NCBI GenBank assembly: GCA_022013615.1
Contig: JAKLQB010000602.1
Coordinates: forward strand, 1-5,240
Length of the DNA stretch: 5,240 bases
Origin: Desulfobacterales bacterium
Lineage (GTDB): Bacteria > Desulfobacterota > DSM-4660 > Desulfatiglandales > Desulfatiglandaceae
Reading direction: 5' to 3'
In this document: one piece after another, positions 432-5,240 of the stretch
Layout: every line of letters starts with the position of its first letter
How positions within the stretch are numbered: position 1 is the first letter of the stretch
Position numbers and translations under genes: made by a program
The notes under the pieces: model-generated
Database searches by the model: none
Told to the model about the DNA's origin: nothing
What the model saw: the letters and a program-made list of their open reading frames with translations, nothing else

Positions 432-542
432 AGTTTTAATCCAATAACCTTTTAATTTTCATTTTCTTTCTGCCAATTCTTGGATGTGTTTTGGAAGCTT
501 TTAGTATTCTTTCTAAAAAGAAGGGGAGGTGAAATGATTCAT
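432..542 (-). pseudogene. Degraded RelE/HigB-type toxin remnant, partner of the antitoxin at 539-739
   Basis: Directly behind the antitoxin, an ATG at 542-540 overlaps its TGA (ATGA, the usual coupling in this TA family). Reading on gives MNHFTSPSF, stop (TAG, 515-513), KEY, stop (TAA, 503-501), KLPKHIQELAERK, stop (TGA, 461-459), KLKGYWIKT, and then runs in frame into the ATG of the gene at 201. As I remember the toxins that partner this antitoxin type, they begin like MxHFTSPxFWxxYxxLPxxIQxLAxKN. The TAG thus replaces a Trp codon and the TAA replaces a Gln codon, each by one base change. Past about residue 30 the body of the toxin (normally around 90 residues with the catalytic core) is missing, and 'GYW' may be a trace of a later conserved segment left by a deletion. 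No functional toxin can be made from this frame. Confidence 0.75.
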
Positions 543-739
543 AGCTTTTTAAATATCCCTTTCTTGAAATCCGACACTGCTCTGTTGGCAATGTCGTCAA
601 ATTTTCCCGAAGCCACGTCTTTCTCAAATTGCTTGTCCCATTCTGATGTATCAAACTCTTCAAACCATGATCGAAATTCTTTAAGTTGCACTTCAGGCAA
701 TCCAGCTACTTCTTTTTTTATTTGTTGGACCAACATCAT
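539..739 (-). CDS. Antitoxin of a RelE/HigB-like toxin-antitoxin pair (orphaned)
   Basis: The product is a 66-residue acidic protein of the small antitoxin family that pairs with RelE/HigB-like toxins. The diagnostic run is the Trp/Asp-rich 'FRSWFEEFDTSEWDKQFEKD' (residues 22-41), followed by 'ASGKFDDIANRAVSDFKKG', in which the family's '..D.Q.E.D...GK.D..A..A..DF..G' pattern is complete. The length is normal. The ATG at 739 is preceded by GAGG at 750-747 with 7-nt spacing, so the start is well supported; a second ATG follows directly. Its toxin partner starts in a 4-nt overlap but is broken by three stops (432-542), so the antitoxin is now an orphan. No clear promoter fits into the 23 bp between the start and the attC-like site at 763-835. 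Expression may come by readthrough from the yefM-yoeB-type operon upstream on the same strand. Confidence 0.85.
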   Translation of the reverse strand: MMLVQQIKKEVAGLPEVQLKEFRSWFEEFDTSEWDKQFEKDVASGKFDDIANRAVSDFKKGIFKKL

Positions 740-762
740 AGCTTCACCTCACTTTTTTTCTG

Positions 763-835
763 CCATAACGCCCAGCTTGAGAGGTGCGAATGGCGCGTAG
801 CGGAAAGAGCATCTTTCTCCAAGCTGATGTTCGCC
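763..835 (+). other. attC-like integron recombination site 1
   Basis: The parts are arranged as in an integron attC site. R'' is CCATAAC (763-769), followed by a 3-nt gap and L'' CAGCTTG (773-779). After a variable centre come L' CAAGCTG (820-826), a 2-nt gap, and R' GTTCGCC (829-835, core GTT). L'' and L' pair perfectly over 7 bp. One extrahelical C (819) follows, then A780-T818, G781-C817 and A782-T816. The site at 1815-1878 has the same gaps and the same extra C. R'' and R' pair only through AAC/GTT, which is normal for an integrated site because R'' belongs to one cassette and R' to the next. It separates the orphan antitoxin locus from yoeB, whose stop is 13 bp past R'. No integrase is in view. 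Confidence 0.6.
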
Positions 836-847
836 GAAAAGCGGCGA

Positions 848-1114
848 CTATTCATAATGGGTCCACATCCGGATGATCTTGACCGTCCGGATATCATCTA
901 AAATTTGGTAGACAATCCGATGCTGGATATTGATCTTCCTGGAACAAGCGCCGGCCAGATCACCAACCAATCTCTCATATGGGGGCGGAGTGCGATAAGG
1001 ATCCTCTCTGAGAACGTCGAGGAGCCGCTCGGCTTGTGGCTTTAAACCGGAATGGGATAGTCTCTTGGCGTCTTTTTTGGCTTGCTTTGTGTAAACCAGA
1101 AGCCAGCTCACCAC
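848..1114 (-). CDS. yoeB: Txe/YoeB-family mRNA interferase toxin
   Basis: The product is an 88-residue toxin of the YoeB/Txe branch of the RelE fold, a ribosome-dependent endoribonuclease that cleaves mRNA in the A site and is neutralised by its YefM-type antitoxin. Family features are the opening W-LVYTKQAKKDAKRL, then 'LREDPYRTPPPYERLVGDLAGACSRKINIQHRIVYQI' and a terminal 'THYE'. Glu47, Arg59 or Arg66, His65 and the C-terminal His86-Tyr87 fit the catalytic positions described for YoeB (Glu46, Arg65, His83, Tyr84), so it looks intact. The start is a GTG at 1114, or the next GTG at 1111; the second gives the usual MSWLLVYTKQA opening. AGAGGAG inside the end of the antitoxin gene serves either. 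It overlaps the antitoxin gene by 7 bp (GTGGTGA), implying translational coupling. It ends right at attC-like site 1 and runs against that site's direction. Confidence 0.9.
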   Translation of the reverse strand: MVSWLLVYTKQAKKDAKRLSHSGLKPQAERLLDVLREDPYRTPPPYERLVGDLAGACSRKINIQHRIVYQILDDIRTVKIIRMWTHYE

Positions 1115-1350
1115 TCAAGCTCCTCTGCACACTCTTCAACCGGAGTTTTCAACCCCTCGCGAATCGATTCCCGCATTCCTGGTATAGATGACAGGTATAA
1201 TGTTTCTTGGATTGCTCTCCAGTCTTCTTCAGAGACGAGGACAGCCGAGTTTCGTTTCCCAACAATTTGGATTGGATCATGGGAATCTGCAACATCATCG
1301 ACGAGGGTATAGAGCCGCTTTCTTGCTTCGGTCGCTGTAAGGGTAGGCAT
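1108..1350 (-). CDS. yefM: YefM/Phd-family antitoxin
   Basis: The product is an 80-residue Phd/YefM antitoxin that should bind and block the YoeB-like toxin encoded next, and repress the shared promoter. The N-terminal DNA-binding half shows the family pattern 'TATEARKRLYTLVDDVADSHDPIQIVGKRNSAVLVSEEDWRAIQETLYL' (about residues 5-53). The acidic C-terminal tail (about 55-80, ending EECAEELEW) is the part that wraps the toxin in known pairs. The start ATG at 1350 has a near-perfect Shine-Dalgarno AAGGAGG at 1366-1360 with 9-nt spacing. Upstream lies a promoter embedded in a 17-bp dyad (1363-1402), consistent with autoregulation. It is first in the operon and overlaps the toxin gene by 7 bp. Confidence 0.9.
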   Translation of the reverse strand: MPTLTATEARKRLYTLVDDVADSHDPIQIVGKRNSAVLVSEEDWRAIQETLYLSSIPGMRESIREGLKTPVEECAEELEW

Positions 1351-1362
1351 TGTTTAGTACCT

Positions 1363-1412
1363 CCTTTTTGTAACGTACGGCATATCGTACGCTACAAAAA
1401 GGGGCAAGTCAA
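1363..1412 (-). promoter_or_regulatory. Promoter, operator dyad and Shine-Dalgarno site of the yefM-yoeB-type operon
   Basis: On the minus strand, TTGACT (1412-1407) and TACGAT (1389-1384) are separated by exactly 17 bp, a good sigma70 promoter. The -10 lies in a long inverted repeat. TTTTTGTAACGTACG (1365-1379) and CGTACGCTACAAAAA (1386-1400) pair at 14 of 15 positions around a 6-nt spacer, and two more C/G pairs extend the arms to 1363-1402. One arm also covers most of the Shine-Dalgarno AAGGAGG (1366-1360). A dyad over the promoter and translation start is what a YefM-YoeB complex needs for self-repression. I infer that from the family; the site itself is seen directly. Confidence 0.8.
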
Positions 1413-1420
1413 GCCATTAA

Positions 1421-1431
1421 TCGGCGAACAT
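1421..1431. repeat. Inverted copy of the attC-like site 1 core (11 bp)
   Basis: TCGGCGAACAT here is the exact reverse complement of ATGTTCGCCGA at 827-837, the R' end of attC-like site 1. The pair brackets the yefM-yoeB-type operon together with its promoter (about 830-1420). In a gene cassette, the R'' box (…AAC) of the cassette's own attC is complementary to the TTRRRY at its start, so GGCGAAC (1423-1429) is what the R'' of this cassette should look like. The L''/L' hairpin that should follow is not recognisable downstream, so the rest of that attC may have been lost, or the match may be a simple inverted repeat. Confidence 0.5.
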
Positions 1432-1530
1432 AGATTATAAGGACTATTTTCCGTAAAATAAACTTTAAGAGAAATTCCTTCTTGTGGGCTATGGGTGATT
1501 TACCCCGTGAAATGTTTACCAAGTGAAATG

Positions 1531-1610
1531 CAAAGCCTATTTCACAACGGCGTAGCCTATTTAACTGGGGCAAAGCCTATTTAACTGGGGTATGCCACAC
1601 ATAGCCGGGG
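1531..1610. repeat. 20-bp tandem repeat, about four units
   Basis: Four consecutive 20-bp blocks line up without gaps: caaagcctatttcacaacgg (1531-1550), cgtagcctatttaactgggg (1551-1570), caaagcctatttaactgggg (1571-1590) and a degenerate tatgccacacatagccgggg (1591-1610). Blocks 2 and 3 differ at two positions only; all four share GCC at the same offset or a GGGG end. The period is not a multiple of three and no frame runs through it, so it is non-coding. Similar 'GTGAAATG…TTTCACTGGGG'-type repeats occur between genes in some environmental bacteria, from memory only. Confidence 0.75.
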
Positions 1611-1744
1611 ATGTAATGACGATTTGCCCTTGCTATCTTACTGCTGCTTTCTTAAACGACCCTTTTTGATATGAAAATTGAAGGTTTAAGCCCAAAAATA
1701 AGAAAAAAACCGATAATATTATAAATATATCGAATAGTTAGCTT

Positions 1745-1763
1745 GGTTCGAATCCCATCTCCG
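1745..1763 (+). other. tRNA 3'-end-like fragment (possible old attachment site)
   Basis: GGTTCGAATCCCATCTCCG reads like the T-loop (GGTTCGAATCC) followed by the 3' acceptor strand of a tRNA, closest to tRNA-Ser 3' ends. No tRNA body precedes it: the 60 bp upstream are A+T rich and form no anticodon or D arm. The T-stem is imperfect (only the two G-C pairs next to the loop are clean) and no CCA follows. It is therefore not a gene. It could be an integration scar, because many integrases use tRNA 3' ends, or a chance match. Confidence 0.35.
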
Positions 1764-1814
1764 AATCTATTACTGATATGTATTTTTTATCCATAGCTTT
1801 ATTTGTATTATGAT

Positions 1815-1878
1815 GCCCAACGCGCTGGCTGAGGGGAGCGCTTTTTATAGTGCTTCCCTCTCCAGCCAGATGTTATCC
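1815..1878 (+). other. attC-like integron recombination site 2 (5' border of the hicAB cassette)
   Basis: R'' GCCCAAC (1815-1821) matches the consensus RYYYAAC. A 3-nt gap, L'' CTGGCTG (1825-1831), a 31-nt centre, L' CAGCCAG (1863-1869), a 2-nt gap and R' GTTATCC (1872-1878) follow. L'' and L' pair over all 7 positions. One extrahelical C (1862) interrupts the stem, which then continues with AG/CT and a GGGGAGC/GCTTCCC-like helix. Gap lengths and the extra C are identical to site 1, so the two are members of one attC family. The predicted crossover is after G1872. The hicAB promoter starts 20 bp after that point. Confidence 0.72.
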
Positions 1879-1892
1879 GGTGACTTTTTGCC

Positions 1893-1928
1893 TTGACATA
1901 CTCGGAAAACATGTGTATAAATACACAC
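1893..1928 (+). promoter_or_regulatory. hicAB promoter with overlapping operator dyad
   Basis: TTGACA (1893-1898) and TATAAA (1916-1921) stand exactly 17 bp apart, a near-consensus sigma70 promoter. The perfect inverted repeat TGTGTAT-AA-ATACACA (1912-1927) covers the -10 and the predicted transcription start. It is a natural operator for the ribbon-helix-helix domain of HicB. Transcription should start about 7 bp past the -10, around 1928, only 1-3 nt before the hicA ATG at 1930, and no Shine-Dalgarno site precedes that ATG. Confidence 0.85.
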
Positions 1929-1929
1929 C

Positions 1930-2118
1930 ATGGATAGCCGAACAATTATCAAGACTCTCAAACAAAATGGTTGGCGCGAAGTGGCAAAAGTCGGCTCCCA
2001 TTCTCAGTTTCGGCATCCAACCAAAAAGGGGCGTGTTACCGTTCCACACCCTAAAAAGGACATACCGATTGGCACCCTGAAAAGTATCGAGCGCCAGTCG
2101 GGAATCAGATTTAGTTGA
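1930..2118 (+). CDS. hicA: HicA mRNA interferase toxin
   Basis: The product is a 62-residue HicA/YcfA-family toxin, a small double-stranded-RNA-binding-like fold that cleaves mRNA independently of the ribosome and is held inactive by HicB. The whole family pattern is present: 'LKQNGWREVAKVGSHSQFRHPTKKGRVTVPHP' (residues 10-41) and 'KKDIPIGTLKSIERQSGI' (42-59). The catalytic His is His24 in GSHSQF. Length and charge are normal, and nothing suggests inactivation. The start ATG is fixed by family alignment but has no Shine-Dalgarno site and lies 9 bp after the -10 element, so a leaderless mRNA is likely. The stop overlaps the Shine-Dalgarno site of hicB, coupling the two genes. Confidence 0.93.
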   Translation: MDSRTIIKTLKQNGWREVAKVGSHSQFRHPTKKGRVTVPHPKKDIPIGTLKSIERQSGIRFS

Positions 2119-2127
2119 GGTGTAACC

Positions 2128-2544
2128 ATGGCAAACTATATTGCAATCGTACATAAAGACCCCAAGAGCGACTTCGGCGTGTCGTTTCCAGACTTTCCGG
2201 GCTGTATCACGGCCGGTAGAAACATCGACGACGCAAGGGACATGGCCCAAGAAGCTCTCGCCCTTCATATTAAGGGCATGTTTGAAGACGGAGAGCAACT
2301 GCCAGGCCCTTCAAAGCTCGAAGAAATTATGGCTGATCCCGATTTCGCTGATGCTGCGGCCTATTTGGTCGTTGAGGTCCCTGATGCCAAGCCTCGAACC
2401 GTCAGGGTCAATATTACTGTTCCAGAAATGACTCTTAAACAAATTGATGCCGCAGCTAAAAAGCGCGGTATGTCAAGGTCTTCATTTCTTGTTCACGCTG
2501 CTCAAAACGCCATCCAGCCTGGCCAATTAGAAGCATCTGTCTAA
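2128..2544 (+). CDS. hicB: HicB antitoxin and transcriptional repressor
   Basis: The 138-residue product is a two-domain HicB. Residues 1-62 form the HicB-like degenerate RNase H fold that binds HicA ('YIAIVHKDPKSDFGVSFPDF', then PGCITAGRNIDDARDMAQEAL). Residues about 92-126 form a ribbon-helix-helix DNA-binding domain, 'VRVNITVPEMTLKQIDAAAK' followed by KRGMSRSSFLVHAA. The RHH should bind the TGTGTAT/ATACACA dyad over the promoter. The ATG at 2128 is preceded by GAGGTG (2117-2122) with 5-nt spacing, overlapping the TGA of hicA. It lies 9 bp behind hicA, and its stop is 12 bp before the R'' box of attC-like site 3. It belongs to the long, RHH-bearing HicB class rather than the helix-turn-helix class. 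Confidence 0.93.
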   Translation: MANYIAIVHKDPKSDFGVSFPDFPGCITAGRNIDDARDMAQEALALHIKGMFEDGEQLPGPSKLEEIMADPDFADAAAYLVVEVPDAKPRTVRVNITVPEMTLKQIDAAAKKRGMSRSSFLVHAAQNAIQPGQLEASV

Positions 2545-2556
2545 TCCTTTCCTTAC

Positions 2557-2649
2557 GGATAACGGATAAGCTGACTTGGCGCGGTGTTCCATATGTGGAT
2601 TTTTAGCAACCGCTGTCACTCCGCGCTCGAGTCAAGCGCCTGGTTAGAA
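2557..2649 (+). other. attC-like integron recombination site 3 (3' border of the hicAB cassette)
   Basis: R'' is GGATAAC (2557-2563). An 8-nt gap precedes L'' TGACTTG (2572-2578), continued by GCGCGG (2579-2584). On the other side, CCGCGC (2621-2626) is followed by an extrahelical T (2627), then L' CGAGTCA (2628-2634), an 8-nt gap and R' GTTAGAA (2643-2649). The arms pair over 13 bp with one G-T wobble and one extra base placed exactly as in sites 1 and 2. The gaps are longer than in those sites (8 and 8 against 3 and 2). R'' is the exact complement of R' in site 2, tying the two as the ends of one cassette. Confidence 0.68.
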
Positions 2650-2686: not shown

Positions 2687-3153
2687 GGGTCGGGCCACGT
2701 TAACTTATTGAATATTATAGCTTTACGTTCCAAAAACAGGTGTTTTCAGGCCCTATATCGTCCTTTTTGACCCCAAAATGGGCGCCATAAGAAATAGATG
2801 ACTCTCGAAGTTGATAGGATTCTCGTGCTTAGATGCTTTTTCTTCTAAGGCCAGTACTCCCAGTATTGATTTTACCCTGACACAAAAAAGCCACGTTCCC
2901 TTTACTGAATGTGAATAATGCTCTTTTTGCCCTAATAAGATCGATATTGAGGCCAAACAAGGGTGTTTCTACGGTTGTTCTTTAATCGTTTTATGTAGTT
3001 ATGGTACTCCCATTATTCGTTCTCGCATTCATAATCTATTCGCACCAGCATAGTCCGCCGCGGCTTGAACAGGCTTCCTCACCGCTTCTGCCGTACCGAG
3101 GCTGAGGGGCTTGTGCACAGTGAGGAGCTACGAAAAGTAGTGGAGGAAAGGAA
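2687..3153. other. Gene-free stretch between the hicAB cassette and the cyclase gene
   Basis: No convincing gene is present in these 467 bp. One open minus-strand frame (2753-2956) lacks a Shine-Dalgarno site and family resemblance and is not accepted. TTGGGGTC (2684-2691) and GACCCCAA (2769-2776) form an 8-bp inverted repeat bounding a 93-bp segment, which could be a small repeat element. GCTTCCTCAC (3073-3082) can pair with GTGAGGAGC (3120-3128), and its CCTCA alternatively with TGAGG at 3103-3107. This lies 26 bp past the cyclase stop and may be its 3' structure, but no T-run makes it an intrinsic terminator. Confidence 0.5.
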
Positions 3154-4728
3154 CTAATCTCGTCCCATGAGCTTATAGACCATAACGTCCCGGCTCTTGC
3201 CCTTTACCTTTACGGCGGGGAGTTGCTCCATTTGAAACCTGCCGGTGACCAAATCATGGGTGGTCTGACTCAGAATCACATCACAGGAGAATTTTTTAGT
3301 AAGCCCTTGGATCCGGGATGCAAGATTTACCGTATCTCCCACCAGGGCATAGGAACTCCTCTCTTTGCTCCCGATAATCCCGGCCAATACCGCGCCTGTA
3401 TGAATGCCGATGCCGTGACGCAAGGGCGAAACCCCTTGTGCTTGAAACCGTTCGTTCAATAGGGCCAATCGCTCCCTCATCTCCAGGGCGGCACGCGCAG
3501 CCGAGTCCGGGTGATCGTCCCGGGGCACAGGTGCACCAAACACCGCCTCGATTTCATCACCCACGTATTGGAGAATCAGACCCTGGTTTTGCTTGATGGC
3601 TTCTGCCATCTCCGAGAAATACTGGTTCATGATTCTGACCACTTTTTGAGGATGGGTGGACTCGACAAAAGGCGTGAAGTCTCTGAGATCGGAAAACAAT
3701 AATGTGGCGCGGGTCATTTCCCCGTCTAAAGAGACCCTGCCTGCCAAAATCTCATCCCGTATTTCCTGGGTAATGTATTTTCCAAAAGATTCTTTCATTG
3801 CCTCAGACTCTTTCAGGCCCTTTATCATCCTGGCAAAGCCCTCGCCCAAGCCGCCGATTTCATCGTTTGAAACAATGCGTATACAAACATCTAAGTTTCC
3901 CTTCTCCACCTCCTTCATGGCCTTTTCCATCTCCTTTATCGGAGCGGAAACGCTTTTGGATACAAAAAGCGACAGTACCAGTGACATGGCAACACCGAGC
4001 GCCGTAATAAAGAAAATCTGAAACACCAACTCGGAAATAATGTGCCCTCCCATTACGGCATCCGCCGACAGCAACGCCTGTGCCTTGTAGTAAGCAGAGA
4101 AGCTGAGAGCTGTCAGTGGGAGCAAACTGATCATAAGAAATACCACGAAAAGTCGGACCCTCACATTCAGCTTAAAGGCGCCGCTCACACGACTCAGATC
4201 CCCTTCCGGGAAAAAACTTGGGAGTTCTTTTCGCCACAGACTTTCCCCACAAAAATAGATGAAAAGAACAGTGAAGGAGCCGCCGATACAGGTTATGCCA
4301 AAGATCCGTCCCAGACTCTCTGAAAGCGTTATCGAAGGCATCCCAAAAAAGGTTTCCAGGATAGCGGGCATCAGCATGCCGAAAATGAATCCTGCCATGA
4401 CCCAGGCGATGAGGCTGCTTCCCGCTATTACCGGAATATTCTGAAGGGCCTTCCTCCTTAGTTGTTCGGCTGAAGGCCCGCTGATATCATTTATGGATAA
4501 TTTACTCTTGAAAAACTCGTCCAGCGGACGAGACCATCGGTTCAGCGTCACCATAATGACTAAAAAAATGAGACCGGTCCCGATGACAAAGAAAATAACA
4601 TAATGAATAGATGGACCTTCCCCAAAAGTACTATCCGGACCTACCCTGACGAAGGTAAAATAAAGAAAGGTAAGCAATGCACCCATCAGGTTCCCGATGA
4701 CACTTAAGAGGGTCAGTTTTAACCTCAT
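3154..4728 (-). CDS. Membrane-bound class III nucleotide cyclase (6 TM, HAMP, cyclase)
   Basis: The 524-residue integral membrane protein is predicted to make a cyclic nucleotide from ATP or GTP at the cytoplasmic face. Six hydrophobic spans lie at about residues 5-27, 42-62, 98-120, 140-160, 191-212 and 234-256. A HAMP signal relay follows (about 252-308, with Pro263 and 'NDEIGGLGEGF' at 288-298), then a cyclase-transducer helix (FGKYITQEI) and the catalytic domain (about 338-522). The order matches the six-span HAMP cyclases typified by Mycobacterium Rv3645. Metal-binding Asp347 (LFSDLRDFT) and Asp391 (YVGDEIEAVFG) are present, as are Asp465, Asn468 and Arg472 (VGDTVNLASR). The purine-contacting Lys of canonical adenylate cyclases is Gln387, so substrate choice is uncertain. 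The ATG at 4728 has GAGG at 4738-4735 with 6-nt spacing. It appears monocistronic. Confidence 0.92.
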   Translation of the reverse strand: MRLKLTLLSVIGNLMGALLTFLYFTFVRVGPDSTFGEGPSIHYVIFFVIGTGLIFLVIMVTLNRWSRPLDEFFKSKLSINDISGPSAEQLRRKALQNIPVIAGSSLIAWVMAGFIFGMLMPAILETFFGMPSITLSESLGRIFGITCIGGSFTVLFIYFCGESLWRKELPSFFPEGDLSRVSGAFKLNVRVRLFVVFLMISLLPLTALSFSAYYKAQALLSADAVMGGHIISELVFQIFFITALGVAMSLVLSLFVSKSVSAPIKEMEKAMKEVEKGNLDVCIRIVSNDEIGGLGEGFARMIKGLKESEAMKESFGKYITQEIRDEILAGRVSLDGEMTRATLLFSDLRDFTPFVESTHPQKVVRIMNQYFSEMAEAIKQNQGLILQYVGDEIEAVFGAPVPRDDHPDSAARAALEMRERLALLNERFQAQGVSPLRHGIGIHTGAVLAGIIGSKERSSYALVGDTVNLASRIQGLTKKFSCDVILSQTTHDLVTGRFQMEQLPAVKVKGKSRDVMVYKLMGRD

Positions 4729-5004
4729 AATGAACCTCGTTTCTTACTTCACACTCATCTTTTTCATCCAAACCCCATTGAAAATTCCAAATCGAGTCGG
4801 GACAAGGCAGTATTCCCCTCAGTTCACTTGTTTTTGGGACGTCTATGTTTATATTCGCTTCTATTCATGGATAAACAAGAAACACACAAGATCACAGGCG
4901 TGCCTCATTCCCATCGGCGAGCTGGGACAAGCCTTAACGACTCCCCCGATTCTTTCGGTCAGCTAAATCGGTCAGATTTAATTATATATGTTGAATGTCA
5001 ATGA
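4729..5004. other. Intergenic region between the RRM gene and the cyclase gene
   Basis: These 276 bp must hold the cyclase's minus-strand promoter, but I see only weak candidates (for example TATAAA at about 4853-4848 with a poor -35). Near the RRM gene's 3' end, TCGGTCAG is repeated directly (4955-4962 and 4968-4975). CCGATT (4946-4951) can pair with AATCGG (4966-4971), or AAATC with GATTT (4965-4979). These are mutually exclusive small hairpins 30-60 bp past the stop. Neither is followed by a T-run, so I do not call a terminator. Confidence 0.45.
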
Positions 5005-5240
5005 TTAGAAGCTACGGCCACCCCTTGGTCCTCCTCTGCCACCGCCTTGTCCTCCTCTGCCACCGCCGTATCCCCCTCTGCCACCACGACTTTCGGTGCG
5101 AGGGCGAGCCTCATTAACGTTAAGTGCTCTTCCTTTTAGCTCTTTGCCATTTAGGCCATCGATTGCAGACTGCCCTTCAGCTTTAGAGGCCATCTCCACG
5201 AATCCAAATCCTTTTGATTGACCACTATGCTTGTCTTTTA
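5005..5240 (-). CDS. RRM-type RNA-binding protein with glycine-rich RGG tail (C-terminal part, 5' end outside)
   Basis: An open frame enters from the right edge and gives 77 residues. It begins KDKHSGQSKGFGFVEM, which contains the RNP1 octamer KGFGFVEM of the RNA recognition motif with its RNA-stacking aromatics. It continues 'ASKAEGQSAIDGLNGKELKG' and RALNVNEARPR, the usual last helix and strand of an RRM. The tail (about 30 residues) is Arg/Gly rich with RGG repeats and ends RGGRSF. RNP2 and the true start lie outside the window. A GTG at 5199 inside the RRM is not a credible start, since it would cut RNP1. Bacterial proteins of this single-RRM plus Gly-tail type, best known from cyanobacteria, bind RNA and are often cold-inducible. 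The role here is inferred from family only. Confidence 0.9.
   Translation of the reverse strand, partial: KDKHSGQSKGFGFVEMASKAEGQSAIDGLNGKELKGRALNVNEARPRTESRGGRGGYGGGRGGQGGGRGGPRGGRSF
5029..5091 (-). repeat. 21-bp coding repeat in the RGG tail
   Basis: TCCTCCTCTGCCACC recurs at 5029-5043 and 5050-5064, and with one change (TCCCCCTCTGCCACC) at 5071-5085, an exact 21-bp period. On the coding strand it encodes seven-residue units of the type GGRGGxG with x = Gln or Tyr. Because the period equals seven codons, copy-number change keeps the frame, so the RGG tail length can vary between strains without breaking the protein. Confidence 0.75.

Follow-up and report, generated by a model that had tools for sequence, protein, structure and literature searches.

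IntegronFinder classes a cluster of integron recombination sites (attC) as integrase-less (CALIN) when no integrase gene (intI) lies within 4 kb of it. CALIN, toxin-antitoxin cassettes and the integrons of Desulfobacterota have all been published already, and the mechanism behind them is known. PMC8618304 lists Desulfobacterota among the integron-carrying phyla and proposes three routes to a CALIN, namely off-target insertion, loss of intI and rearrangement. According to PMC11023631, the toxin-antitoxin cassettes of the Vibrio cholerae chromosomal integron are two-gene modules with their own promoters and one attC per cassette. We describe here a stretch of 5,240 nt (the window; contig JAKLQB010000602.1 of a Desulfobacterales bacterium) which, judging from its sequence, very probably carries attC-marked integron cassettes with toxin-antitoxin pairs, and whose present state is probably that of a CALIN.

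Like a CALIN, the window brings together several closely spaced attC sites and cassettes with no integrase in view. It shares with the V. cholerae cassettes of PMC11023631 the two-gene modules, the single attC per cassette and promoters that, by eye, appear to belong to each of the two cassettes; it differs by its Desulfobacterota host, by a HicAB pair running against its attC and by having only two complete cassettes. The comparison set consisted of the 85 genomes of the order of the closest relative, a Desulfatiglandales metagenome-assembled genome (MAG) called G001 below. An integrase (IntI) above the curated cut-off of the survey profile, TIGR02249, was present in 38 of them, in keeping with the Desulfobacterota integrons of PMC8618304 and unlike the window, which lacks an integrase.

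Three attC sites were recognised, all on the minus strand. Site 1 (763..835; R'' GGCGAAC at 835-829, R' GTTATGG at 769-763) is the attC of a YefM-YoeB cassette, site 2 (1815..1878; R'' GGATAAC at 1878-1872, R' GTTGGGC) that of a HicAB cassette, and site 3 (2557..2649) provides with its R' GTTATCC (2563-2557) the start box of the HicAB cassette and is read as the attC of a lost upstream cassette. The coordinates had been proposed, by eye, in an earlier note on the raw sequence and proved correct for all three; the orientation it gave was wrong, the top strand of each attC being the minus strand according to the strand scores of our home-made covariance model R2. With this model site 2 scored 34.2 bits on the minus strand vs 9.3 on the plus strand, and sites 1 and 3 were matched on the minus strand only. 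The three best R2 matches in the window are exactly the three sites (site 2, 34.2 bits, E 1.5e-7; site 3, 28.4 bits, E 4.7e-6; site 1, 19.8 bits, E 8.5e-4); with 9.3 bits, the mirror of site 2 comes fourth. E-values are rough, due to a short calibration, and are given for the whole window. Nothing in Rfam came near any gathering score.

The AAC and GTT core boxes, the paired arms and the one-sided extrahelical bases are visible in the R2 alignments. Sites 1 and 2 have the boxes, the paired stem of about 7 bp and the gaps of 3 and 2 nt described beforehand. The single extrahelical base said to occupy one common place in the stem was found in these two sites, after 6-7 bp and ambiguous between two like bases, and not in site 3, where a script resolved a first extra base after 3 bp and, beyond a further 6 nt, an extra A. 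In the relatives an attC usually opens with AAC, followed by 8-9 nt, one extra base, 6 nt and an extra A, and has a C in front of GTT. The script placed the A as expected in 14 and the C in 15 of the relatives' 17 sites, with three sites parsed in a wrong register (L045:302, L046 and L078:395) and one off by a base. The order from AAC to the extra A was recognised in sites 1 and 2 by eye only, their R2 alignment giving 8 nt and one more inserted base. Judged by structure and model matches, all three are genuine attC sites. A further candidate at ~115-187, with a GCCCAAC box and a hairpin, had no R2 match and was dropped.

Training candidates for the models were proposed by an ad hoc hairpin finder and chosen by eye on IntI-bearing contigs of the relatives, none coming from the window. 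This finder had a high background on DNA without a demonstrated integron and served solely as a source of such candidates. The first model, R1, was narrower and was built from 16 of the 17 sites on joined arms, because MAFFT misplaced some loops when given full sites. Over 49 loci and with E up to 5, it recovered 15 of the 16 sites it was built from and 19 others, of which 16 were oriented as IntI predicts (strands judged by ourselves), and had no match in 35 loci, L001-L008 included. On the window it matched site 2 (27.3 bits, E 6.9e-5) and site 1 (E 0.29). R2 was then trained on 29 R1 matches (E up to 0.1) from 14 of the 49 loci; the last three rows of its alignment are weak and one of its sequences lies on an unexpected strand.

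A separate Python profile score based on those 16 sites of the relatives, with one extra inner-arm base allowed after the window sites had been seen, also ranked the three sites first to third (24.8, 20.4 and 16.3), with the mirror of site 2 again fourth (12.0). When the window was dinucleotide-shuffled 300 times, totals of 0, 1 and 2 matches reached the scores of sites 2, 3 and 1, respectively; no shuffle had three sites of that level on one strand, and 7.7 was the highest score of a third site on the same strand. If the minus strand is the top strand, the recombinogenic strand is the plus strand. Folded as single-stranded DNA, the plus strand gave z-scores of -3.31 for site 2, -2.50 for site 3 and -0.61 for site 1, equalled by 0, 3 and 56 of 200 shuffles; the corresponding minus-strand values were -1.17, -1.92 and -0.08, with 27, 8 and 92 shuffles. 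Folding of the plus strand thus beat the shuffles for sites 2 and 3 only; the minus strand did not discriminate.

On the minus strand, an integron cassette runs from just past the G of the preceding R' box up to and including the G of its own attC. The YefM-YoeB unit delimited in this way (cassette A, 769..1428, minus strand, 660 bp) has its genes pointing to their attC, as is usual. Read on the minus strand, its start box GTTCGCC (1429-1423) and its R'' GGCGAAC (835-829) are exact reverse complements over 7/7 positions, and the heptamer GGCGAAC occurs only once on the plus strand of the window. The YoeB toxin (848..1114, minus) passes the NCBIfam equivalog cut-off of TIGR02116 Txe/YoeB (88.7 bits vs 51.8) and also matches PF06769 and PF05016, and the YefM/Phd antitoxin (1108..1350, minus) matches PF02604 (63.2 bits). 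A palindrome at 1363-1402, upstream of YefM, is likely the operator of the antitoxin. Site 1 starts 12 nt past the YoeB stop codon, and a homologous attC is found at equal distance in G001 and in a second relative, G054.

The same unit recurs with the same boundaries in other contexts. Cassette A aligns over 766-1429 with G001 and over 767-1428 with G054, at 84% identity in both, and in two pieces (766-801 and 852-1428) with G049. Alignable DNA stops no more than 3 nt from both cut points in G001 and G054, and also in G049 if the outer ends of the two pieces are taken; in G049 an attC starts exactly at the far, upstream edge of the cassette. The alignments of other relatives cover shorter parts of it.

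The HicAB unit (cassette B, 1821..2562, minus strand, 742 bp) has its genes opposite to their attC. Here too the start box (GTTATCC, 2563-2557, minus) and R'' (GGATAAC, 1878-1872) are perfectly reverse-complementary (7/7), and GGATAAC has a single plus-strand occurrence in the window. The HicA toxin (1930..2118, plus) scores 77.3 bits against PF07927 and the HicB antitoxin (2128..2544, plus) 127.6 bits against PF15919, both for a gathering cut-off of 27. A promoter-like TTGACA / 17 nt / TATAAA, seen by eye, stands at 1893-1921, inside the cassette and before HicA. In one relative (G031) the HicAB block ends at 2563, coinciding with an attC edge and supporting one end of the cassette only. In G045 and G044 the alignment spans 1871 to 2540; its stop at 2540 and the absence of GGATAAC after HicAB in the G045 stretch searched indicate a different right part of the cassette in these genomes.

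The presence of attC next to the same genes in relatives was evaluated with R2 (default filters, E up to 1, ~1.5 kb on each side where the contig allows). HicB relatives occur at 15 loci (41.2 kb in all) from 12 of the 85 genomes, and 7 of these loci yielded 11 matches, of which 10 lie opposite to HicB and one, in L122 with a 43% identical HicB, does not. YoeB relatives occur at 20 loci (58.2 kb in all) from 18 genomes, with 15 matches in 10 loci, every one of them on the strand of YoeB (15/15). With filters off and E up to 10, a scan of 8 of the 35 loci gave five matches: one already known (L124), one in G054 (L126) 12 nt past the YoeB stop, with E 0.002 and seen only in this mode, a same-strand match of E 0.53 (L129) and two opposite-strand matches of E 4.5 and 8.4. 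The toxin-antitoxin cargo announced between the attC sites was in this way borne out by the profile matches and by homologous cassettes with attC in relatives, and two complete toxin-antitoxin cassettes, YefM-YoeB and HicAB, are shown by the sequence. In other hosts, 23 plasmid records match the HicAB and YefM-YoeB stretches, and viral contigs provided one HicB relative (L008), in which the R1 scan found no match.

The spacing from site to site is not cassette spacing throughout, since YefM-YoeB ends at 1428 and leaves 391 bp (1430..1820, minus) up to the R' of site 2. This interval contains no attC match with R2 at E up to 10, and holds a dispersed repeat (~1459-1761) matched in 16 of the 85 genomes, with one copy in L001 1-126, the G001 locus; it is read as a decayed cassette. 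On the other side of site 1, 478..768 (minus) is a probable truncated cassette with no attC left. It holds a 66-aa open reading frame (ORF; 539-739) which starts 29 nt beyond the site 1 cut, has distant relatives (29-40% identity) in 13 of the 85 genomes, finds nothing above the Pfam cut-offs nor any NCBIfam match, and looks antitoxin-like to us from its size and sequence. Neither the exact box expected at the start of the lost cassette of site 3 (TTCTAAC) nor that expected at the end of the cassette following site 1 (GTTATGG), left of 763, was found. Past 2649 come a short repetitive stretch and, from ~2688, a repeat resembling a miniature inverted-repeat transposable element (MITE). We read the cluster as decayed.

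Several observations weigh against the assignment to attC-marked cassettes or to a CALIN. Site 1 is weak in both models (19.8 bits with R2, E 0.29 with R1) and its fold is ordinary, R1 left site 3 unmatched at E up to 10, and the finder behind the training sites was written with the window sites in mind. Under default filters no attC was detected in 8 of the 15 HicB and 10 of the 20 YoeB loci, several of which are contig ends, and 16 control loci around relatives of the region 201-477, scanned at E up to 2, gave a background of 3 matches in 43.6 kb (E 8.5e-7, 7.7e-4 and 0.021). The exact box pair of cassette A was present at both ends only in G001 among the stretches of 7 relatives, with one box in 3 and none in 3. 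Two further points also set the locus apart from CALIN: R2 recognised no attC on the upstream side of cassette A in the window or in G001, and the absence of an integrase covers the 5.2-kb window only. The ordinary fold of site 1 and the high background of the hairpin finder could suggest that what stands next to the toxin-antitoxin operons are terminators, dispersed repeats or inverted repeats formed by chance, which we regard as extremely improbable given the strand-asymmetric model matches, the complementarity of the boxes, the breaks of homology at the cassette edges and the shuffle test. The reading as attC cassettes is favoured because of the covariance-model matches, the exactly complementary end boxes and the homologous cassettes with attC in relatives.

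Regarding the integrase, none is in view, as the earlier note had stated: the best IntI-like match in the window has an E-value of 0.16, and the same queries find, with E 5e-24, a C-terminal IntI fragment of G001 (L034, G001:C376, 3743-3928; profile positions 252-313, 112 bits). The three sites might be the edge of a complete chromosomal integron with its integrase beyond the window, in line with the IntI of 38 of the 85 genomes and with G001, which keeps this fragment on one contig and three attC matches on another. As the attC sites are on the minus strand, this integrase would be expected to the right of site 3, where there stand instead the MITE-like repeat, an adenylate cyclase gene and an RRM gene, syntenic with G001, whose contig reaches ~0.6 kb further right than the window and shows no convincing IntI match (best E 0.63); we consider such an integron unlikely. 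A distant integrase could also have put single cassettes at non-attC (attG-like) sites, without there ever having been an integron here. The lack of attC at the upstream edge of cassette A, in the window and in G001, agrees with this, as do the G054 cassette, which has identical boundaries and whose attC is the only match below E 1 in the 3.3 kb scanned (filters off), and another MAG, G002, with at least 29 scattered attC matches and no IntI above the cut-off. However, sites 2 and 3 lie on either side of HicAB as they would in an array, the upstream edge of cassette A coincides exactly with an attC in G049, and an empty site was not found; off-target insertion also appears doubtful. Its extension to the whole order, with self-expressed toxin-antitoxin cassettes as mobile elements planted singly at non-attC sites by a distant integrase, and with this cluster, the G054 cassette and the G002 attC never having formed an array, is quite improbable. 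A CALIN remains the favoured present state.

From integron biology, an integrase would have folded the recombinogenic strand of each attC (the plus one in this case) to form a hairpin and cut it between G and TT, the segment being excised or inserted as a circle. A cassette having its own promoter and an addiction module would not need the integron promoter, and its loss would be penalised, so that YefM-YoeB and HicAB would outlast neighbouring cassettes. The CALIN may have been left by rearrangement, one of the three proposed routes. That the window cuts through an array, as the note proposed, is not shown; the cluster appears to fray inside it, at ~478 (truncated gene) and at 2650-2690 (MITE-like repeat).

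On the left, the region 201-477, matched in 16 of the 85 genomes, encodes a 76-aa protein without Pfam or NCBIfam match. Its ORF (201-431) is preceded by a neighbour gene in 7 of the 9 relatives examined; the window keeps, at 439-477, only the last 12-13 residues of this neighbour, and the remainder of the gene, which breaks at 478, is not convincingly matched by any other part of the window. On the right, the MITE-like repeat, with the end GGGGTCGGGCCACG, occupies 2688-3001 of the window and occurs in L001 (2762-3093 and 179-311), L002 (5985-6066), L144 (1981-2079) and L150; it is common to several Desulfobacterota MAGs, and the window copy lacks the right end present in L001. The adenylate cyclase gene (3154-4728) encodes a protein 98% identical to that of L001 and 80% to that of a Desulfobacterales MAG, and the DNA of 3118-5240 is 95.7% identical to L001.

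Two other genomes of the survey displayed larger sets of attC matches. In G002 (L002; e.g. L082, L086 and L095) the matches (at least 29, E up to 0.1) are spread over 20 contigs and come from the scoring of 150 out of 1165 candidates; the eight listed differ in sequence, the three loci viewed carry by eye toxin-antitoxin-, HEPN/MNT- and HsdM-like genes, and the best IntI match of this MAG, below the TIGR02249 cut-off, has E 1.1e-26. On the 4.8-Mb contig C1 of G045, the region 461-500 kb (L075 and L148) shows a one-strand run of attC matches around an IntI in two overlapping pieces, with HicAB and, by eye, MazF-, Phd/VapC- and HigBA-like genes.

The locus is a small, decayed example of a known gene-capture element, and its general interest is modest as the mechanism is known. 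It shows, for an uncultured lineage, that attC sites spotted by eye in raw sequence are open to confirmation, and it provides two defined and shared cassettes, YefM-YoeB and, against its attC in several genomes, HicAB, which are usable to track cassette exchange among Desulfobacterota.

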